DNA of 64,000 nt. Origin: Archangium lipolyticum. GTDB taxonomy: Bacteria; Myxococcota; Myxococcia; Myxococcales; Myxococcaceae. Positions 23,795-33,204 of the stretch are shown here, one piece after another. The stretch's first letter is position 1, and every line of letters starts with the position of its first letter. The stretch lies in contig NZ_JANKBZ010000025.1 in the NCBI RefSeq assembly GCF_024623785.1, positions 62,001 to 126,000 on the forward strand. The letters run 5' to 3'. The translations under genes were made by a program, and so were the position numbers. The notes under the pieces were generated by a model, which did not search any database, was not told where the DNA came from, and saw nothing but the letters and a program-made list of their open reading frames with translations.

Positions 23795-25009
23795 ATGCAG
23801 ACCCTCACGCAGCCCGATTTCGGTTCGCAGCGCTTCAAGGCCAATCCGTTTCCTTTCTACGCGCGCCTGCGCGAGGAGGCGCCCGTCTTCCGCATCATGG
23901 GCCCCGCCAACGAGGTGGGCTGGCTGGTGACCCGTTACGAAGACGTCAACCAGGTGTTGAAGCACGCGAGCCTCAGCAAGGATCGCATCGGAAGCATGAC
24001 GCCGGAGCAGCGGGCCCGGATGCCCTGGTTCGTGAAGCTCTTCGAGCCGATCTCCCAGAACATGTTGAGCAGGGATCCTCCGGATCACACCCGGCTCCGC
24101 GCGCTCGTGCACAAGGCCTTCACGCCCCGGTTGATCGAACGGCTGCGCTCTCGCGTCCAGAGCCTGTCGGATGGGCTGCTGGATGCGGCCCAACGCAAGG
24201 GCTCCATGGAGCTCGTCTCGGAGTACGCGCTGCTGGTGCCGGTGACCATCATCGCCGAGATGCTGGGGGTCCCCTCGGGCGACTACCGGAAGTTCCAGCG
24301 CTGGTCCAACCGGCTCATCTCCAACACGAACATGCGGGACGTGCTGCTCTCCGTCCCGAGCATCCTGATGTTCACCCGCTACCTGCGAAAGCTCGTCGCG
24401 CAGCGGCGCTCGTCCCCGGGAGATGATCTGCTCACGGCCCTCATCCAGGCGGAGGAGGCGGGCGACAAGCTGACGCCGGACGAGCTGGTCAGCATGGTGT
24501 TCCTCCTGCTGGTGGCCGGGCACGAGACCACGGTGAACCTGATCGCCGGTGGCACGCTCGCGCTCCTCCAGCACCCCGAGCAGTTGGATCGGCTGAGGAA
24601 GAACCCCGAGCTCATCGAGCCGGCGGTCGAGGAGCTCCTGCGCTACGCGAGTCCGGTGGAGATCTCCACCGAGCGCTTCGCGCGCGAGGACATCTCCGTG
24701 GGTGGGGTGACGATTCCGAAGGGGGACCTGGTCTTCGCCGTCATCGCCTCCGCGAACCGTGACGAGCGCCAATTCCAGAATCCGGACACGCTCGACCTGA
24801 GCCGCGAGCCCAACAAGCACCTGTCCTTCGGGATGGGGATCCACTACTGCCTGGGGGCGCCGCTCGCGCGGCTGGAAGGGCAGATCGCCATCCAGACGCT
24901 GGTGAACCGGTTCCCCCGCCTGCGCCTGTCGAAGCCGGCGGAGTCGCTGAAGTGGCGCACGGGCTTCCTCATGCGCGGGCCCAAGCAGCTCCCGGTTTCA
25001 CTGTCCTAG
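23795..25009 (+). CDS. Cytochrome P450 (bacterial class I type)
   Basis: Soluble haem-thiolate monooxygenase of 404 residues, the usual bacterial length. Visible landmarks are the I-helix AGHETT (241-246), the K-helix ExxR region (EELLR), and the haem-binding loop FGMGIHYCLGAPLAR with axial C352. It needs a ferredoxin/reductase pair, not encoded nearby. ATG 23795 has GAGAGG 7 bases upstream; the same frame stays open for 1.4 kb upstream, but that part is antisense to the protease. The substrate is unknown. The terpene cyclase lies about 5 kb downstream, which hints at but does not show a link. Confidence 0.9.
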   Translation: MQTLTQPDFGSQRFKANPFPFYARLREEAPVFRIMGPANEVGWLVTRYEDVNQVLKHASLSKDRIGSMTPEQRARMPWFVKLFEPISQNMLSRDPPDHTRLRALVHKAFTPRLIERLRSRVQSLSDGLLDAAQRKGSMELVSEYALLVPVTIIAEMLGVPSGDYRKFQRWSNRLISNTNMRDVLLSVPSILMFTRYLRKLVAQRRSSPGDDLLTALIQAEEAGDKLTPDELVSMVFLLLVAGHETTVNLIAGGTLALLQHPEQLDRLRKNPELIEPAVEELLRYASPVEISTERFAREDISVGGVTIPKGDLVFAVIASANRDERQFQNPDTLDLSREPNKHLSFGMGIHYCLGAPLARLEGQIAIQTLVNRFPRLRLSKPAESLKWRTGFLMRGPKQLPVSLS

Positions 25010-25296: not shown

Positions 25297-26052
25297 ATGC
25301 GCAACCAATCGTTCATCGCGGCGCTGACCGTGGGCTCCCTGGGAATCGCCACGCTGGCCCATGCCGACTCGTTCGACTGCTACGAGAACTGCACCGTCGA
25401 TCTGAAGACCGATCCGAACTGCCTACAGGGCGTGAGTTACGACTACGACTTCTCCACGGTGGACCGCGGCAGCGATGTCACCGTCATGTCGTTCCACGGC
25501 GGCAACATCGAGCTGCACACGAGTACCATCGCCCGCACCGTCGCCGACCAGAACTCCTGGAACTGGTACAACTTCGCCGGCCACGGCCGTTCGTCCTGCC
25601 TCAATGGGCTGTCCAACTTCGGCAGGCTGCACATCACCGCCATCAACTTCAACGAGCCCACCCTCCACGACCTCGTGGGCAGGTACCCGAATGCGGTGGC
25701 CATCCACGGCTTCAGCGAGGACACCTATCCGCGGGGCACCATCTGCGTCGGCGGGCGCAACGCGGCCCAGGTGCAGGCGTTCATCGACTCCATCAACGCC
25801 AACAAGAGCCGCTTCACGCGCTACTCCATCAACGCCGTCAACGCGGCCACCGCGCCCTCGGGCACGACGTGCTCGCAGTGGCGGGGGACGGCGCAGGACA
25901 ACCCGGTCAACAGGAGCTCCAGTGGCGCGGGCGGCCTGCAGCTCGAGCTGAACCTCGACATCCGCAAGGACCTGGTCAACGTCTCCTCGGACTACAACGC
26001 GCTGCGGGACGTGTTCTACGGCGCCATCCACGCCGCCATGACCACGACCTAG
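25297..26052 (+). CDS. Exported poly-gamma-glutamate hydrolase-like protein
   Basis: Secreted protein of 251 residues resembling the zinc-dependent poly-gamma-glutamate hydrolase family (PF05908 type). The family pattern FHGGNIELHTSTIA starts at H67, with E72 close behind. Further His residues (AGHGRSS, AIHGFSED) could complete the metal site. Such enzymes cut gamma-glutamyl polymer capsules; phages and Bacillus use them, so in a predator it may strip prey capsules (inference). The signal peptide ends AHA-DS near residue 24. ATG 25297 has AGGGAAGGA upstream. Its stop overlaps the stop of the convergent gene inside one CTAG. Confidence 0.72.
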   Translation: MRNQSFIAALTVGSLGIATLAHADSFDCYENCTVDLKTDPNCLQGVSYDYDFSTVDRGSDVTVMSFHGGNIELHTSTIARTVADQNSWNWYNFAGHGRSSCLNGLSNFGRLHITAINFNEPTLHDLVGRYPNAVAIHGFSEDTYPRGTICVGGRNAAQVQAFIDSINANKSRFTRYSINAVNAATAPSGTTCSQWRGTAQDNPVNRSSSGAGGLQLELNLDIRKDLVNVSSDYNALRDVFYGAIHAAMTTT

Positions 26053-27338
26053 TGGTCGCCCCAGGTGAAGCCGGTTCCCACCGTGAAGGTGACACCCCGG
26101 GACCAGGGTGACACCGCGGGCGCGAAGGCCCGGTACTGCGCCTCCGCGCTCAGGGAGACCTTTCGGTTGAGCTGCGCGTGGAGACGCAGGCCGACCGGCA
26201 GCTCCGGATGGAGCGTCCGGTTCAGGGCGAACAGGCCCGCGCCCGCCGTGGCGCGCAGGTCGAGCCCGCCCGACTGGCCGAGCCGCGCCGTCAGCAGGGG
26301 CGGAGAGAGCAGCGCCAGGGACCAGATGCCGGTTCCACCCAGGAGCGGATTGCCCAGGGCCCGCGCGTAGCTGGCCGAGAGCCCCATTGCCCAGGGAAGG
26401 GGGAACAGGGCTCGAGCGCCCGCCACCGGAGTCGTGGCGCGGAGCGAGGTGACGGCTCCTCCCAGGAGCTCCAGGGCGAGGGCAGGGGAGGGCTTCCAGC
26501 CCGGCTTCGCGGCCTGCTGATTCCGAGCCTCCGCCAGCGCGGTGAGCCGCGCCGTGGCCCAGAGGAGGAAGGCGCGGGAGTAGGCCTCGGCGGAGCCGAC
26601 TCGCGCGTTCACGAAGTCCTCGTACGCCGAGGGGTCCACCTTCCACGTCCGCCCCTGCCAGCGCACCTCCGTCGAGTCGAAGGCGTTGCCCACCACGCCA
26701 TAGCCGCCGAACGCCCCCGGCTTGTGGGGCGTGGGCTCGGCCCAGAACGCGCTCCAGGGGATGGCTCCCCCCTCCACGGGTAGCGTGCCCGTGCGCACCA
26801 CCTCCAGTGTCTCCCGGGCCAGCGCGAGCTGGGCCTCCTCGCCGGAGAGCGGGGCGAGCTGCCTTCCGGGGGCGGCCGAACCCACCTTCGGCTCATGCTG
26901 CTCGAAGCGATCCGTGAGTCCGTGCATCACCGGCACCACGTGCATCGGGACGCCCATGTCCTGGATGTGGTGCACCAGGTGGCCGACGCGATCGAAGGCC
27001 CGCGCCAGGTCTCCGTTGCTCGCGGCCTCCTCGGCCTCCCGCCACAGGACGCGCACACGGACACCGGAGTCCTTGCGGATGGCGGAGTCGAGCGACACGC
27101 CCGGGTGGAAGAAGTGATGATAGCCGGTCCACTTGACGAAGAGGTTCAGGTCCTCGGCCCGGCTGCCCTCCACTACGGCCTCGCGGTGGGCCGCGAGCGC
27201 GGACGGAGCGCCCGCTTCGAGCGCGGCGTCGATGGAGGCCCGGGTCATGGCCTCATGGGCGGGGACGGAGAAGGCGCTCGCGCCCAGGGGCAGCAGGACG
27301 GCGAGCAGGAGCGGGAGGCAGGAGCGTGCGGAGCGCAT
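26049..27338 (-). CDS. Exported zinc-dependent phospholipase C-like protein with beta-rich C-terminus
   Basis: Protein of 429 residues with a signal peptide ending ASAFS. The N-terminal half resembles the S1/P1 nuclease-zinc phospholipase C fold: His-rich helices FSVPAHEAMT, YHHFFHP and HLVHHIQDMGVPMHV supply metal ligands. From about residue 290 the sequence changes to short Gly/Leu strands ending in an aromatic-containing TGFTWGDH, as in outer-membrane or autotransported beta domains. If active it would act on phospholipids outside the cell. ATG 27338 gives a signal peptide at once; the in-frame extension upstream does not. Confidence 0.65.
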   Translation of the reverse strand: MRSARSCLPLLLAVLLPLGASAFSVPAHEAMTRASIDAALEAGAPSALAAHREAVVEGSRAEDLNLFVKWTGYHHFFHPGVSLDSAIRKDSGVRVRVLWREAEEAASNGDLARAFDRVGHLVHHIQDMGVPMHVVPVMHGLTDRFEQHEPKVGSAAPGRQLAPLSGEEAQLALARETLEVVRTGTLPVEGGAIPWSAFWAEPTPHKPGAFGGYGVVGNAFDSTEVRWQGRTWKVDPSAYEDFVNARVGSAEAYSRAFLLWATARLTALAEARNQQAAKPGWKPSPALALELLGGAVTSLRATTPVAGARALFPLPWAMGLSASYARALGNPLLGGTGIWSLALLSPPLLTARLGQSGGLDLRATAGAGLFALNRTLHPELPVGLRLHAQLNRKVSLSAEAQYRAFAPAVSPWSRGVTFTVGTGFTWGDH

Positions 27339-27451
27339 GCGGGGAGCCAGCCTAACCTTTCTCGATTCCCGCCGTTTCCCGTGGGTCCACCAGAGGGGAG
27401 CGCCTGCTCGGACGGCTGCGCCCTGATGGTTGATTTCCACCAATACCTGAC

Positions 27452-27525: not shown

Positions 27526-29364
27526 GTGTCCGCAAGCCCGCCCGCCCTGTCCTACGAACCCGGCCCGCTCACGCGCCGGATCTTCCTGACGCAGCAACTC
27601 TACACCCTCTTCGGGGCACCCCCGTTGGTGTACCTGATGGTGCTCATCAGCGGGCTCCAGGGGGACGAGGCCACGTCCATTACGCGGACGATCGTGCCGC
27701 CCCTGGCCCTCGTCATCGGGTGCATTTCTCCGTACCTCATCATCCGGCTGGCGGTCCGGTACGGGCTGTCGCTGTCCCCCGGCGAGGCTCCGGAACACCG
27801 GATGACACGGCTCCTGAAGGTTCCCGGCATCATCAGCGCGGGGATCATCCTCAACACCGTGTCCGCGGCGGTCATCTTCACGTCCGCCGCGGTCGTCCTC
27901 CATGGCAAGAGCGCCTGGATCATCCCCTGGGCCGTGGTGGCCCTGGGTCTGTTGGTGTCGCTGCTGATGCTCCAGCAGCGGGTCGCCTTCGAGAAGATCC
28001 TTCGCCCCTATGCCATCGCGGACTTCCATAAGGCGTCGGGCCGGGTCTCCCAGGTGAGCAGTGGGTTCTTGTGGCCCCGTCAGTCGTGGTACCTCCCCTA
28101 CGCCTTCGCCCTCTTCGTGGCCTGCACGCTGGTGGCGACGGCCTCCATCATCGGCAGGCAGGCCTATGTGGCCCACGAGTTCCTGATGGACCGGCTCCTC
28201 CAGGGCGGGGTGAGCCCGGAGCAGACGATCGTCTTTGTGCGTGAGTCCATCCAGATGCTCACCGAGGGCTCCATCCTGCCGGTGGCGCTGGTGGGGGCCT
28301 TCCTGCTCGTCTCCGCCGCGCTCGCGGCCTGGAATCTGGCCCAGCAGCAGAAGGAGGGCACGGAGAGCGTTCAGCGCGCCATGGAGAACCTGGTGCACGG
28401 CAAGCCCCAGCTCCCGGATTGGATCTCCACCGACGAGGTGGGGGTCCTCTCGGCGACCACGGCCCGCATCTTCGAGCAGCTCAAGGCGTTCTCCTTCTCG
28501 TTGCAGTCGTCCGCGCAGTCGCTGCGTGACTGCGCCGAGCAGCTCGGGGACTCGACCGTCAAGCAGACCGAGGTGCTGACGCACCAGGCCGCCGCCCTGC
28601 AGGAGACCCAGGTCACGGCCCAGGAGATCAAGCACACCTCGGTGCTCGCGTCGCAGAAGGCGGAAAACGTCCTCCAGCTCACCGAGCGAGCCAACGAGAT
28701 CAGTGTCCAGGGCGAGAGTGCCCTCCAGCAGGGTCTGACGGGCATTCAGCAGATTGGTACGCAGGTCCGGGAGATGGCCACGAGCATCCGGGCCCTCGAC
28801 GAGCGTGCCCGGCAGATCGCTCACATCACCACGCTGGTGAAGGGCCTGGCCGACCGCTCCAACATGCTCGCGCTCAACGCCGCCATCGAGTCGGTGCGCT
28901 CCGGGGACGCCGGCAAGGGCTTCGGAGTGGTGGCGCGGGAGATCCGCACCCTGGCCGATCAGTCCATCAAGGCCACCCGGGACATCAGCGAGATCCTCGA
29001 GGACATCGGCAACGCCATTCTTTCCGCCGTGTCGCTCATGGAGCGAGGCTCCGAGCGCGTGGAGGTGAGCCTCGGGCAGATCCGCGACTTCAGTACCCAG
29101 GTGCAGCAGATCTCCAACATCGTCCGGGAAAACGCCACCTCGGTGCGGCAGATCACCGCCGCCGTGGGTCAGCAGGACGTGGGCATCGCGCAGATCTTCC
29201 AGGCCGTCAGCGATCTGTCGAAGGGCATGGATCAGGCCATGCACCAGCTGCGGACCTCGGACGACGTGCTCTCCCGGGTCCGGGGTGTGGCGGAGCAGGT
29301 CTCCGGCATCGTCAGCCGCTACGGCTGGCAGAACCTGGATGAGGTGCCCCCGCCCCGCTCGTGA
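27526..29364 (+). CDS. Methyl-accepting chemotaxis-type receptor with six-helix membrane domain
   Basis: Receptor of 612 residues. Six hydrophobic helices fill residues 25-290, with no large periplasmic ligand domain; the biggest loop is about 50 residues between helices 5 and 6. The cytoplasmic part is a long coiled-coil signalling hairpin. Its tip, LADRSNMLALNAAIESVRSGDAGKGFGVVA (features: NMLALNAAIE tip and GKGFGVVA), is the CheA/CheW contact region. This suggests sensing within or at the membrane rather than of periplasmic ligands. The start is GTG 27526, with AAGG close upstream. No che genes are adjacent. Confidence 0.85.
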   Translation: MSASPPALSYEPGPLTRRIFLTQQLYTLFGAPPLVYLMVLISGLQGDEATSITRTIVPPLALVIGCISPYLIIRLAVRYGLSLSPGEAPEHRMTRLLKVPGIISAGIILNTVSAAVIFTSAAVVLHGKSAWIIPWAVVALGLLVSLLMLQQRVAFEKILRPYAIADFHKASGRVSQVSSGFLWPRQSWYLPYAFALFVACTLVATASIIGRQAYVAHEFLMDRLLQGGVSPEQTIVFVRESIQMLTEGSILPVALVGAFLLVSAALAAWNLAQQQKEGTESVQRAMENLVHGKPQLPDWISTDEVGVLSATTARIFEQLKAFSFSLQSSAQSLRDCAEQLGDSTVKQTEVLTHQAAALQETQVTAQEIKHTSVLASQKAENVLQLTERANEISVQGESALQQGLTGIQQIGTQVREMATSIRALDERARQIAHITTLVKGLADRSNMLALNAAIESVRSGDAGKGFGVVAREIRTLADQSIKATRDISEILEDIGNAILSAVSLMERGSERVEVSLGQIRDFSTQVQQISNIVRENATSVRQITAAVGQQDVGIAQIFQAVSDLSKGMDQAMHQLRTSDDVLSRVRGVAEQVSGIVSRYGWQNLDEVPPPRS

Positions 29365-29371
29365 GGGGGGC

Positions 29372-30031
29372 TCAGCCGTTCCGCGCCAGGATGTCGGGCA
29401 GCGCGGACAGGTCGCGGACGACGTTGCGCTCCAGGTCGTGCGCCGGGCGCTGGCGCTCCACATGCCAGGCCCTCATGCCGAGGAGCTCCGCGCCCGAGAC
29501 GTTGGCCTTCTCGTCATCGAGGAACAGGCAGCGCGACGCCTCCAACCCGAGCATCTCCAGGACGCGCTGGTAGGCCTCCGGAGCCGGCTTGGTCGCGCCT
29601 GTCGCCTGTGGGTTGCAGATGACGTCCACCAGGTCGTCCAGCCCCATGTGCGTCAGGGGTTCCTGCAGGTCGACGAGCGGCGTGTTGGACAGCACGGCGA
29701 CGCGCAGGCCCCGGTGCCGTGCCTCCAGCAGGGCGGGCCGTGCATCCGGGAAGGCTTGGAAGAGGTCGAGGTAGCGGAAAGACTTGAGCTCCCGCAGCAC
29801 CTCGGGCGAGAGCTTCAAGCGAACGCTCAGGTCGTCCCAGAAATCATCCCAGCGCAGGGCCCCCGGCCGCAGGTGTTTCTGACTCTCCTGCACCCACCGG
29901 TTCCACTCCTGGACGATGCCTCCGAGCGACAGGGGCAGCAGCTGGCTGAAGAATGCCGCCGCCTTCCGATAGTTCAGGTCGGCCAGGACGCCGTCGTGAT
30001 CGAAGATGATGGCTTCGAGGGGCATTCGCAT
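29372..30031 (-). CDS. HAD-family phosphatase paired with a terpene cyclase
   Basis: Soluble HAD hydrolase of 219 residues, subfamily I layout. The nucleophile motif FDHDGVL has D11 and D13, with a helical cap at about 20-90. Motif II is LSNTP, motif III Lys is in TKPAPEAY, and motif IV is FLDDEKAN. All catalytic residues are present. It starts 8 bases after the stop of the class II terpene cyclase on the same strand, so the two are almost certainly one transcript. By analogy with fused cyclase-HAD enzymes that make drimenol, it may remove the diphosphate from the cyclised product. A housekeeping phosphatase role is the alternative. Confidence 0.85.
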   Translation of the reverse strand: MRMPLEAIIFDHDGVLADLNYRKAAAFFSQLLPLSLGGIVQEWNRWVQESQKHLRPGALRWDDFWDDLSVRLKLSPEVLRELKSFRYLDLFQAFPDARPALLEARHRGLRVAVLSNTPLVDLQEPLTHMGLDDLVDVICNPQATGATKPAPEAYQRVLEMLGLEASRCLFLDDEKANVSGAELLGMRAWHVERQRPAHDLERNVVRDLSALPDILARNG

Positions 30032-30039
30032 TGGCTGGC

Positions 30040-31584
30040 TCAGCGAGAGAGGTCGTCCCGGTTGAGCTCCAGTGCGAGCATGGCGCTGAGCTCGAAGATG
30101 CGATCCAGCCGGTAGGGGCGATACAGCTCCTTACCAATCCAGTAATGCTCGCGCTGCTCCGGGGGGACGTCCTCCTTCTGTGCCAGCATCCATCTGGCGG
30201 CCCGCTGCAGGGCGGGTCTCACCAGGGCGCCGAAGTCGGCGTGTGTCCGCAATCCGAGCAGGGCCTGGACGGCGTAGGACGTCTCCGAGAGCGTGGACAC
30301 CTGGGCCACGCCCCAGCCACCATCCTTGCGCTGGGTCTCCAGCAGGGCTTTCACCGCGGTCTGCAGGGCTCCCGTGGCGCCGGCCCGGATGAGCGCGAGC
30401 ACCACCTGGGAGGTGGTGTACAGCCAGGAGATGTGCCACTTGTCCACCATCCACCGTCCATCGCCGCCCTGCTTCTCCAGGAGCCAGTTGACCAGCCCCT
30501 TCACGTCCTTGCCGAGCTCCGCCAACGCCATCACTCCATGGGCGGTCGTCGTCACGGAGGGCTGCAGCTCGTACTCGTAGGTGATGAACTGCCCATCCGC
30601 GAGCTGGTAGCGCGAGAGCTGGTTCCCATCCATCTGGTATCCCGCTCCCTTCAGGGTGACGATGCTGGTGGAGGTGAGATCTCCATCACACACGAAGTGA
30701 GCGCTCATGCCGTAGCCCTCCTTGGGCCGCAACGCCTGGCGCAGGTCCTCGAGCTGGGGCCGGACGACGTCCTGGAGGTCCGGATGGTTCAACAGCCCTG
30801 TGATGAACAGGGCATAGAGGCACCAGGACTGCTCGAAGTGGTGGATGGGCCAGACCGTTGGGACGACCCCGGGGATTCCAGCCCCGCTGGCTTCGGCGGA
30901 CTCCCGGAGGAAACGCTCCGCGCCCTGGCGCTCCTCGGAGCGGTCTGGGAAGGCCGCCTTGTGCAGGTGCACCCAATACGCGGTGGCCGCCGGGCTGTTG
31001 CCGACTCCGCCCGATTCGTCCAGCACCGCGAGGTCCGGCGCGGTGCCCCATGACTCCCAGCCATGGATGGGCGCGGTGGCCTTCCGGGGCTTCATGCGGG
31101 CGATCAGCCCCCGCCGCCGGTCTCCCAGCGCGCGCACCGTCTGGAAGGGCTTTTGCGGCAGATCGATGCCCGCCTCGGCGGCCTCGCCCAGGAGCCGGGG
31201 CAGGGTGAGCTCGGCGGCGACGGGGATGTCGTCCGGCAGGGCGCCCTCGAAGGCCCACTCGCCCGCATGGTCCCGGAAGAACGCGATGCCACGTTCCACC
31301 GCCCGCCGGATCTCCGGGCTGTCTCCTCCGGACTGGCGCAGCGCCAGTACAGCCGCGAGCGTCGGAATGTGCCTCGCCAGGGGCAGCACTTCGGGTGCCC
31401 AACCCCCGTCCGGCCGCTGTTGCCGCAGCAGCCAGTCGATGGCTGGCCGGGGATCCTGAGGCGGGGCGTATCGCAGCACCTGCGCCGTGTCATAGATGGA
31501 CGGGGAGAGGACTCCACCTTGTGCGCCGAGCGCCTGAATCTCGACTCTCAACTGCGCGATGAACCGCTCGATGGTGGGGGTCAT
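30040..31584 (-). CDS. Class II terpene (diterpene/sesquiterpene-type) cyclase
   Basis: Protein of 514 residues, the length of bacterial class II cyclases (copalyl- and halimadienyl-diphosphate synthases). The N-terminal SPSIYDTAQV (27-36) matches their SPSxYDTAWV signature. QW-like repeats are at RPDGGW (57-62) and KDGGWG (420-425). The acid motif DxDD/DxDTT appears as D300-G-D302-L-T304; the middle Asp, the proton donor of the family, is kept, while the next position is Leu. Squalene-type enzymes are longer. It would cyclise a linear prenyl diphosphate by protonation and leave the diphosphate in place, which fits the phosphatase next door. ATG 31584 is used; the longer frame upstream is antisense to the mannosyltransferase. 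Confidence 0.82.
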   Translation of the reverse strand: MTPTIERFIAQLRVEIQALGAQGGVLSPSIYDTAQVLRYAPPQDPRPAIDWLLRQQRPDGGWAPEVLPLARHIPTLAAVLALRQSGGDSPEIRRAVERGIAFFRDHAGEWAFEGALPDDIPVAAELTLPRLLGEAAEAGIDLPQKPFQTVRALGDRRRGLIARMKPRKATAPIHGWESWGTAPDLAVLDESGGVGNSPAATAYWVHLHKAAFPDRSEERQGAERFLRESAEASGAGIPGVVPTVWPIHHFEQSWCLYALFITGLLNHPDLQDVVRPQLEDLRQALRPKEGYGMSAHFVCDGDLTSTSIVTLKGAGYQMDGNQLSRYQLADGQFITYEYELQPSVTTTAHGVMALAELGKDVKGLVNWLLEKQGGDGRWMVDKWHISWLYTTSQVVLALIRAGATGALQTAVKALLETQRKDGGWGVAQVSTLSETSYAVQALLGLRTHADFGALVRPALQRAARWMLAQKEDVPPEQREHYWIGKELYRPYRLDRIFELSAMLALELNRDDLSR

Positions 31585-31710: not shown

Positions 31711-33204
31711 ATGTCTTCTTCGTTGCCCCGGTATCCGGACTATGATCACGCCCCCGTGGACTCCGGATCCCGACTTGCGGCTGTCTCGATATCCCCTGCC
31801 GGCTCTGGCGCGCAGACCCGGCGTTGGCTGGTGCTGTGCACGCTGGCGGCGATCCCCAGCATCCTGGCGGTAGCGCAGCTCGGGCGCATCCACCCGGACG
31901 AGGTGTACCAGGTGCTGGAGCCCGCCTGGTACCGCGCCCATGGCTACGGAGTGATGTCCTGGGAGTGGAAGGAGGGCATCCGCAACTGGGCCATCCCCGG
32001 GCTGTTCTCCTGGCTGCTGCGGCTCTGCCGGGTGCTGGGCATCGAGCATCCCCTGGGGTACCGGGCGGTGCTGGAGCTGCCCCAGTACGCGCTGCACCTG
32101 GCGGCGTTGGCCGCCGTGGAGCGGTGGTCTCGGCGGAGCTTGCCCGTGTACGGGGCCTGGCTGGCCACCGCGCTGGTCGCCCTCTACCGCCCGGTGCTGG
32201 AGTACGCGGGGCGGACACTCAGCGAGTCCTTCTCCGCCGCCTTCCTGGTGCTGGCCTTCGAGCGGATCGCCTCTTCCGAGGAGGGGGAATCGCCGGAGCG
32301 CCGGCTGCGCCGGGGCATGGTGGCCGGGGCGCTGCTGGGCCTGGCGGTCGTCTCCCGGTATGGCTCGATGGTCTTCGTCATCGCCAGCCTGGGCTGGCTG
32401 CTGGCGGGACGCCAATGGCGTGTCCTCGGCGGCTGGGTGATGGGGGGCGCGGGAGTGGCCCTGGGCCTGGCGCTGCTCGACTGGCTCACCTGGGGCAGGC
32501 CGCTCCACTCCCTCTGGGCCTACACCACGTTCAATGTCTTCTCCGGGCAGGCGGCGGAAAAGTTCGGCGCCGAGCCTCCCGGCTATTACGTCCCCATCTG
32601 GTTGAAGGTGCTCCCGCTCTGGAGCTGGTTCGGCCTGTGGGGGGTGCTCCGCCGCCACCGGAGCGCCCTGCCATTCCTGGGGAGCGCTGCGCTCTACCTG
32701 GTGGCCATCAGTGCCACGGCGCACAAGGAGGATCGCTTCCTCTACCCGGCCACGGTGCTCTGGGTGGTGGGGACCGCGCCGGCCACGGTGGAGCTGTTCG
32801 TGTCGCTCCGGCTCATCCAGGTCCGCGCGGCCGCCGCGCTGGGGGCCCTGGTCCTGTCACTGGCGACGCCGTTGCGGCTCGAGCCTCCGCGGAAGAAGGA
32901 CCACTTCCAGGCCATCGTTCGCGCCACGCGCTCGCCGGACACCCGGGGCCTCCTCTACATCAACGAGGTGCCCAACGAGAGCGTGTGGGGCGCGGGGGGC
33001 TACTTCTACATCGGCAAGGACATTCCCTGGCTGACCGCGGACCGGCCCGGGGACGCGAACTTCCAGGCCGCGATGAAAGACCCCACCTACAACCGGGTGG
33101 TGACGTTCCGGAGTCTGGCGGTGCCCGAGCTGGAGCGGCACGGCTTCTCCGTAGTGGAGCGGATCGGCCGGGCGACGGTGCTCGCGCGCGGCTCGGGCGG
33201 GTGA
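31711..33204 (+). CDS. GT22/ALG9-type membrane mannosyltransferase
   Basis: Polytopic membrane glycosyltransferase of 497 residues using a lipid-linked sugar donor. The first lumenal/periplasmic loop has HPDEVYQVLEPA, the GT22 acidic motif. The later loop has HKEDRFLYP, nearly identical to the HKEERF motif of ALG9/PIG-B enzymes. About ten hydrophobic helices lie between. In bacteria these proteins are scattered and their acceptors mostly unknown. ATG 31711 is chosen, with a weak ribosome binding site. It is divergent from the terpene cyclase, with 126 bases between starts. Confidence 0.78.
   Translation: MSSSLPRYPDYDHAPVDSGSRLAAVSISPAGSGAQTRRWLVLCTLAAIPSILAVAQLGRIHPDEVYQVLEPAWYRAHGYGVMSWEWKEGIRNWAIPGLFSWLLRLCRVLGIEHPLGYRAVLELPQYALHLAALAAVERWSRRSLPVYGAWLATALVALYRPVLEYAGRTLSESFSAAFLVLAFERIASSEEGESPERRLRRGMVAGALLGLAVVSRYGSMVFVIASLGWLLAGRQWRVLGGWVMGGAGVALGLALLDWLTWGRPLHSLWAYTTFNVFSGQAAEKFGAEPPGYYVPIWLKVLPLWSWFGLWGVLRRHRSALPFLGSAALYLVAISATAHKEDRFLYPATVLWVVGTAPATVELFVSLRLIQVRAAAALGALVLSLATPLRLEPPRKKDHFQAIVRATRSPDTRGLLYINEVPNESVWGAGGYFYIGKDIPWLTADRPGDANFQAAMKDPTYNRVVTFRSLAVPELERHGFSVVERIGRATVLARGSGG

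Follow-up and report, generated by a model that had tools for sequence, protein, structure and literature searches.

A diterpene-type class II cyclase gene followed by a stand-alone HAD phosphatase gene in Archangium lipolyticum: a candidate two-gene route to a cyclic terpene alcohol

Introduction

The 64,000-nucleotide stretch of Archangium lipolyticum DNA analysed here (contig NZ_JANKBZ010000025.1, positions 62,001 to 126,000; hereafter the window) carries on its minus strand a gene for a class II terpene cyclase of 514 amino acids (30040..31584) and, directly downstream, a gene for a stand-alone HAD phosphatase of 219 amino acids (29372..30031). The cyclase is a two-domain class II enzyme of the diterpene type, related to copalyl diphosphate synthases (CPS) and to Rv3377c, and the two genes probably constitute a single transcription unit. 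We propose, with moderate confidence, that this unit serves the synthesis of a cyclic terpene alcohol, in which the cyclase would make a cyclic, probably C20, prenyl diphosphate and the HAD phosphatase would strip it to the alcohol.

The joining of class II cyclisation to hydrolysis is known already: AsDMS and DrtB are fusion proteins, a fungus uses separate HAD proteins, and Streptomyces employs a Nudix hydrolase. A CPS-type cyclase served by a stand-alone HAD phosphatase would be a further form of it, seen in one genome. If the proposal is correct, there is a bacterial route in which a stand-alone HAD protein completes the work of a CPS-type cyclase, in place of a class I synthase, a Nudix hydrolase or a fused HAD domain. 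The pair would also be a naturally occurring set of two proteins for producing bicyclic terpene alcohols, and would allow fused and separate cyclase-phosphatase arrangements to be compared in a simple way.

The gene pair

Inspection of the letters alone (the sequence-only reading) had described a class II cyclase with an SPSxYDTA signature and a D300-G-D302-L-T acid motif, followed 8 bases later by a complete HAD phosphatase. Coordinates, Pfam matches and motif residues bear this description out. Both genes begin with ATG. In the cyclase, SPSIYDTA occupies residues 27-34 and DGDLT residues 300-304; the codons of the latter lie at 30673..30687 on the minus strand, and alignment identifies D302 as the predicted general acid. 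A longer cyclase reading frame of 894 amino acids, opening with GTG at 32724, was discarded as an artefact of open reading frame listing, as homology favours the ATG at 31584. The cyclase exceeds the Pfam cut-offs for SQHop_cyclase_N (4.5e-11) and SQHop_cyclase_C (8.7e-10), and the phosphatase that for PF00702 (9.5e-22; 78.8 bits against a cut-off of 26.4). The third-position G+C content of the HAD reading frame, at 0.90, is similar to that of neighbouring genes.

The cyclase stop and the HAD start are separated by the 8 bases at 30032..30039 (minus strand), in which no strong ribosome-binding motif was seen by eye and no terminator-like site was found on the minus strand. The statement that no class I terpene synthase adjoins the pair also holds, as none was found beside it. 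A blastp search that used the divergent class I synthase of the same genome hit no gene called from 20 to 42 kb, and the neighbours run through Pfam yielded none either, the two together covering part of the window's genes.

Family and fold of the cyclase

Sequence searches of the PDB rank Rv3377c (6vpt), PtmT2 (5bp8) and Tpn2 (7xkx) first for the cyclase. An AlphaFold2 model built from a six-row alignment (pLDDT 79.3, pTM 0.82) and compared by VIA/Foldseek agrees closely with all three, giving a VIA Z of 37.9 for Rv3377c (460 residues, 2.5 Å), 36.0 for PtmT2 (466 residues, 2.9 Å) and 35.9 for Tpn2 (448 residues, 2.6 Å). Sequence identity in these fold alignments is 27-29% over 448-466 residues at an rmsd of 2.5-2.9 Å, and since the structure matches span the whole cyclase chain, the two-domain (beta-gamma) fold is present in the model. 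The drimenyl diphosphate synthase SsDMS (7xq4/7xqz/8zg0 and their series) lies farther off, with a VIA Z of 27.3 (437 residues, 3.6 Å), and so does the cyclase domain of AsDMS, with a Z of 22.0 (263 residues, range 257-269; 3.1 Å; 11% identity), although a one-domain match lowers Z in itself. A sterol or hopanoid cyclase was considered and rejected: matches to the NCBIfam squalene/hopene-cyclase models fall far below their cut-offs, and the squalene-hopene cyclase fold scores a Z of 26.6 against 36-38 for the leading matches.

Phylogeny points the same way as fold. The sequence-only reading would have been undone by a cyclase branching outside the class II terpene cyclases, and that outcome did not occur. 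In a tree of 33 class II proteins, a clade of 18 myxobacterial cyclases is sister to a rhizobial ent-copalyl diphosphate synthase (ent-CPS) with an SH-aLRT support of 99; outside the clade stand two cyclases of one other genome (G121) and the divergent third cyclase of the window's genome (L064). The trees are quick searches with SH-aLRT support only, in which several long branches were flagged, and one locus (L198) was lost from the motif alignment for lack of a match. Among plasmid records, the cyclase likewise finds its best matches in rhizobia, where identity reaches 38% across 99% of the query.

The sequence-only reading had tentatively placed the pair among drimenol-type systems, as a fused drimenol synthase split in two. 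This frame does not stand, because the cyclase is a full two-domain enzyme whose kin are diterpene cyclases: by fold it is nearest to Rv3377c, PtmT2 and Tpn2, on the tree it groups with the rhizobial ent-CPS, and both SsDMS and AsDMS are farther away. As its kin are of the diterpene type, the substrate is more likely to be geranylgeranyl than farnesyl diphosphate.

The acid motif and the active site

D300, D302 and T304 do not vary in either of two alignments, with 11 and 6 rows, and the middle Asp of the motif is kept in every alignment row. The Leu at the fourth position had been taken as a sign of a different product or of a weaker enzyme. That view was abandoned: in seven orthologs (58-69% identity) the residue is Ile in five and Thr in two, so the Leu is not exceptional, and this variation speaks against its being the mark of a weak or dead enzyme. 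The genome's own paralog carries Ile (DGDIT), eight paralogs of the sorangiadenosine (sora) type (L052-L059) carry Asp, and Rv3377c is reported with DxDTT (PMC5024094). On these alignments, the Leu appears to be a conservative change within a clade that had already given up the fourth Asp, rather than the sign of an odd enzyme.

Further residues of the active site are also kept. H174, W482 and Y488 are invariant in both alignments and correspond by motif to H180, W483 and Y489 of Tpn2, in the numbering given in PMC9814783. D119 and E125 are conserved, but stand one residue wider apart than in the DxxxxE diphosphate/metal motif, as they do in the Rhizobium etli CPS. At the position described as product-controlling, the cyclase has Gly (WIGKELY; equivalence by motif), the residue reported there for 91.1% of the cluster of gibberellin-CPS and Haur_2145 (PMC9814783). 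The His-Asn base dyad of gibberellin-CPS, defined by LHS and PNV motifs (PMC12410513), is present in half: His174 stands within IHG, and the Asn is replaced by Thr (PTV).

Among the closest known relatives is the ent-CPS encoded on plasmid p42d of R. etli CFN 42 (WP_011053441.1, annotated 'hypothetical protein'), which shares the 38% identity over 99% of the window cyclase mentioned above and forms its sister branch. It sits among genes for P450s, a short-chain dehydrogenase/reductase, a second isoprenoid-biosynthesis protein, isopentenyl diphosphate isomerase and a polyprenyl synthetase, a locus that is presumably the gibberellin operon. The R. etli enzyme resembles the window cyclase in having WIGKELY, with Gly at the product-controlling position, and the conserved His174. 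It differs in its acid motif (DADDT against DGDLT), and its locus has no HAD gene. Where the window cyclase has PTV, most bacterial gibberellin-CPS have PNV, and R. etli itself has PSV.

The HAD phosphatase and its subfamily

The four HAD motifs are complete in the window phosphatase (D11xD13, S115, K148 and D172D173), and these residues are invariant in five aligned rows, the window's included. Among characterised phosphatases its best profile match is YihX, which we take to be the protein of entry P0A8Y3. The HAD domain of AsDMS is reported to be homologous to the E. coli phosphatase P0A8Y3 (PMC9128629), and the fungal AstK is annotated as 'phosphatase yihX' (PMC5024094). Against PDB sequences the HAD profile gave 143 matches, and AsDMS is not among the best 60 of them, which has no bearing on fold; a single-sequence AlphaFold2 model of the phosphatase reached a pLDDT of 40.1 and was left out of all comparisons. 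In plasmid records, 65 matched the phosphatase, those listed at 28-43% identity and mostly over half of the protein.

The genome samples searched comprised 96 genomes of the family, 145 of the order, 195 of the phylum and 298 of one actinomycete order, and several searches scored a limited number of candidates per genome (15, 10 or 5). The phosphatase belongs to a rare and sharply delimited subfamily, in which relatives match with E-values of about 1e-36 to 1e-38 and the next HAD proteins at 4e-8 or worse (three genomes). With 15 candidates scored in each genome, a threshold of E 1e-22 gave members in 6 of the 195 Myxococcota genomes, and the window phosphatase is the only one in its genome. 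The five others (G046, G072, G073, G074 and G075) all overlap or directly adjoin a polyprenyl-synthetase-like gene. The HAD gene precedes this neighbour in G046 and follows it in G072-G075. Pfam assigned two of the synthetase-like proteins, and similarity the remaining three. An isoprenoid role for the phosphatase is credible because all five of these members keep company with a gene resembling prenyl-diphosphate synthases. The polyprenyl-synthetase-like gene itself finds no counterpart (E 1e-15) in the window's genome. Of the seven known subfamily members, six, among them that of the window, stand next to an isoprenoid gene, and five stand next to a nucleotide- or nucleoside-cleaving gene.

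Polyprenyl-synthetase-like and LOG (Lysine_decarbox) domains are fused in single proteins in G043, G044, G045 and G121 (L121, 5326-7038, minus strand; L122, 5323-7035, minus strand; L123, 5992-7707, plus strand; L124, 1207-2961, plus strand), and no HAD protein of the window's subfamily was found beside these fusions. Together with the unfused row of LOG-type, synthetase-like and HAD genes in G072-G075, this fusion suggests, by domain content and gene order, that such loci may handle prenylated nucleotides.

Proposed reaction and the paralogous cassette

In the proposed alcohol route, the cyclase would use Asp302 to protonate a linear prenyl diphosphate at its terminal double bond and would close a bicyclic skeleton with the diphosphate kept on. 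The phosphatase, predicted to depend on Mg, would then remove the phosphates stepwise with Asp11 as nucleophile, as the HAD domain of AsDMS does, and a cytochrome P450 encoded at 23795-25009 may act later. The phosphatase would thus take the place held by a class I synthase in a paralogous cassette of the same genome.

This cassette, on contig C1, consists of a paralogous cyclase gene, then a class I terpene synthase gene, then a convergent gene for a protein resembling methyl-accepting chemotaxis proteins (MCP). The C1 class I synthase exceeds its Pfam cut-off and has the motifs DDEMD and SDIGSIRRE. The C1 cyclase is 45.9% and 41.0% identical to the window cyclase in two BLAST pieces, and 50% in a multiple alignment. 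The window has the same layout of cyclase, HAD and MCP-like genes, with the HAD gene in the place of the class I synthase gene. By analogy, both middle genes encode enzymes that would remove the diphosphate, the class I synthase by ionisation and the HAD phosphatase by hydrolysis. It is mainly because of this parallel that a functional pairing is retained here despite its poor conservation. The part of the sequence-only reading that proposed a separate cyclase and phosphatase making an alcohol survives in its reaction logic, which the isoprenoid-linked HAD subfamily and the probable two-gene unit favour, while its drimenol and split-fusion frame is lost.

The C1 cyclase (L060, 7974-9992, minus strand) has 672 amino acids and two insertions in its N-terminal half, one of which contains a GLWPxKxGLW-like repeat. 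A third, very divergent class II-like cyclase, with about 24% identity and a DLDDT motif, is encoded on contig C7 of the same genome (L064, 7944-9635, minus strand).

Conservation of the pairing and alternative explanations

Several observations weigh against the proposed alcohol route, foremost among them the rarity of the pairing. A HAD gene was found at none of the seven orthologous cyclase loci (G043, G044, G045, G047, G072, G073 and G074, from two genera) in the flanking 8 kb to left and right (one flank of G045 extends 3.3 kb), so the pairing appears to be lineage-specific. The HAD subfamily is unrepresented at E 1e-15 in four of these genomes (G043, G044, G045 and G047); in G072, G073 and G074 its gene lies far from the cyclase gene, beside the synthetase-like gene. 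Across 49 class II loci (the window, 20 other myxobacterial and 28 further loci; 48 of them distinct and a number closely related), a HAD gene adjoins the cyclase gene in the window alone, as detected with one profile at E 1e-4, which may miss remote HAD proteins; at one actinomycete locus (L202) a weak partial HAD match lies about 4 kb from the cyclase. The actinomycete neighbourhoods were taken for 20 of the 50 cyclase matches listed. A single-sequence query missed the cyclase in 8 of these 20 loci (L200-L219), and also in L010 and L222; such loci were centred on profile or tblastn matches.

The company of the HAD subfamily speaks against the route as well. In G072-G075 a LOG-type gene precedes the synthetase-like and HAD genes in the same gene row, and the one strong HAD match among the 298 actinomycete genomes adjoins a nucleoside hydrolase gene, not an isoprenoid gene. 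A nucleotide substrate for the phosphatase is possible, because a LOG-type gene occurs in four of the five Myxococcota relatives and a nucleoside hydrolase gene beside the actinomycete match. Moreover, HAD phosphatases are often promiscuous. At L224 (4961-6669, plus strand), the actinomycete HAD gene overlaps an inosine-uridine nucleoside hydrolase gene, and the genes downstream look transposase-like by eye.

The strongest competing explanation is that the cyclase is an ancestral resident, and that the HAD gene is a recent and functionally unrelated arrival between the cyclase and MCP-like genes. The cyclase product would then leave as the diphosphate or be converted by enzymes encoded elsewhere, such as a class I synthase acting in trans. 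The bare orthologous loci fit this well, and so does a comparison of four genomes, the window's included, in which the orthologous cyclase gene and the MCP-like gene converge, with no gene between them except in the window; a class I synthase is, furthermore, encoded in the genome, beside the paralogous cyclase. A chance arrival accords poorly, on the other hand, with the identity of the newcomer, which alone in this genome represents a subfamily found next to an isoprenoid gene in all five other Myxococcota cases, and which is intact, co-directional with the cyclase gene and only 8 bases from it. We regard an unrelated arrival as possible, but clearly less probable than the alcohol route.

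Relation to known systems

Rv3377c, PtmT2 and Tpn2 share the two-domain fold of the window cyclase, and their partners are Rv3378c or class I synthases. The combination of class II cyclisation with subsequent HAD dephosphorylation is found in the HAD-TCbeta drimenol synthases (AsDMS, AncC and DrtB) and in AstC. The HAD-TCbeta enzymes are single polypeptides with the HAD domain fused N-terminally and with a beta domain only, whereas the window has separate reading frames, with the cyclase gene upstream of the HAD gene, and a cyclase of two domains. The HAD domain of AsDMS is reported to dephosphorylate via the monophosphate and to be inactive on linear farnesyl diphosphate (PMC12365925). In the astellolide system of Aspergillus oryzae, the stand-alone HAD proteins AstI and AstK are described as stripping the class II product of AstC in two steps (PMC5024094); this system is fungal and makes C15 compounds, its cyclase is itself a HAD fusion, and it has two HAD proteins where the window has one. 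The cav cluster of Streptomyces, as reported, also encodes a class II cyclase (SsDMS), a separate hydrolase and P450s (PMC11035983), but the hydrolase is a Nudix instead of a HAD enzyme and SsDMS is a distant relative of the window cyclase. In a literature search judged from titles and abstract openings, mainly of open-access papers, we found no report of a CPS-type bacterial cyclase with a stand-alone HAD phosphatase, nor of Archangium diterpene enzymes.

A second alternative follows the drimenol-type pathway of the sequence-only reading: with farnesyl diphosphate as the cyclase's substrate, the two enzymes would make drimenol or a comparable C15 alcohol. Its reaction logic would be that of AsDMS and of AstC with AstI and AstK, the Streptomyces drimenyl diphosphate synthases are likewise reported as two-domain class II enzymes, and chain length is not fixed by sequence alone. 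The nearest relatives of the window cyclase are nevertheless C20 cyclases; SsDMS falls about 9-11 Z units behind them and the AsDMS domain about 14-16 (as a one-domain match, lower in itself), and where SsDMS matches the family profile best, only its C-terminal part is involved. A C15 product consequently seems rather unlikely to us.

A different comparison is offered by the 2-hydroxysorangiadenosine (sora) cluster of a myxobacterium. In its publication (PMC7321100), sora8 (518 amino acids) and sora12 (509 amino acids) are called eudesmadiene transferases, and sora11 (609 amino acids) is tabulated as a sensory transducer. The first two resemble the class II cyclases discussed here in size and gene order; the third is in line with the MCP-like neighbour in the window's clade. 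Unlike the window, the cluster has a class I cyclase and a P450, and the table lists no HAD gene. Three of the loci that we examined (L055, L052 and L054) resemble the sora cluster in gene order and gene size, by comparison with the published table, and where sora8 would stand they carry class II cyclase homologues with the motif DGDDT. This homology suggests that the 'eudesmadiene transferase' genes should be re-examined.

Least probable of all, in our view, is that the phosphatase acts on a nucleotide, removing the 5′-phosphate of a terpenylated nucleotide to give a terpene nucleoside of the sorangiadenosine or tuberculosinyl-adenosine kind: LOG-type genes in four of the seven known HAD subfamily loci and a nucleoside hydrolase gene in one, the origin of sorangiadenosines in related myxobacteria, from a cluster reported to combine a class I cyclase, two genes like these class II cyclases in size and order, and a sensory transducer (PMC7321100), and the closest fold being Rv3377c, whose product is reported to be joined to adenosine, all favour the idea. 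Against it, neither the window's locus nor any of the 20 further myxobacterial cyclase loci has a relative of LOG or nucleoside hydrolase. The only LOG-family match in the genome lies on another contig, the genome as a whole gives no synthetase-like match at E 1e-15, and the HAD protein was not found in the sora-like loci examined.

The neighbouring MCP-like receptor and other genes

The gene convergent with the pair (27526..29364, plus strand) encodes an MCP-like signalling protein with a hydrophobic N-terminal half, of about six membrane segments by eye, and an MCPsignal domain. An MCP-like gene lies at most about 1.3 kb from the cyclase gene in nine of the ten members of the window's cyclase clade, the exception being L061, where it is about 11 kb off; five of these nine have it in convergent orientation, and four have it upstream, on the cyclase strand. 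When all 21 myxobacterial loci are counted, 10 have an MCP-like gene nearby (the window, L045-L051, L053 and L060), the tenth being L053. The window's genome has 7 MCP matches of this type at E 1e-10, which puts the chance of one falling within 4 kb at about half a per cent per locus, although related loci are not independent.

The cyclase-adjacent MCP-like proteins cluster on a tree, with 3 label changes against 9.1 in shuffles and none of 500 shuffles as low, a contrast that related genomes inflate. The tree contained part of the MCP matches, with the G073 copy left out, and its rows counted as near were the window, L051, L131, L135, L140, L147, L152, L156, L163 and L136, the last about 11 kb from the cyclase.

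The MCP-like neighbour is a possible terpenoid receptor, to judge from its domains and its recurrent position, and its conservation makes terpenoid sensing in myxobacteria directly testable. A more far-reaching idea, speculative and in our estimate doubtful, is that Archangium-type myxobacteria possess a swappable cassette for making and sensing a terpenoid. It would combine a class II cyclase, an exchangeable diphosphate-removing partner (the HAD phosphatase here, a class I synthase in the paralogous cassette, and none next door in the orthologs) and a dedicated membrane MCP-like receptor, which would read the cyclic terpenoid as a self-made lipophilic signal.

The P450 gene already mentioned (23795..25009, plus strand) encodes a possible tailoring enzyme. 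Further P450s, with 36-38% identity to this one, are encoded near four class II loci (L060-L063), and not near the seven orthologs. Between the P450 and MCP-like genes, the gene at 26049-27443 (minus strand) encodes a protein without a Pfam match at E 0.01, which is kept near the MCP-like gene in G043, G044, G045 and G047 at 75-89% identity.

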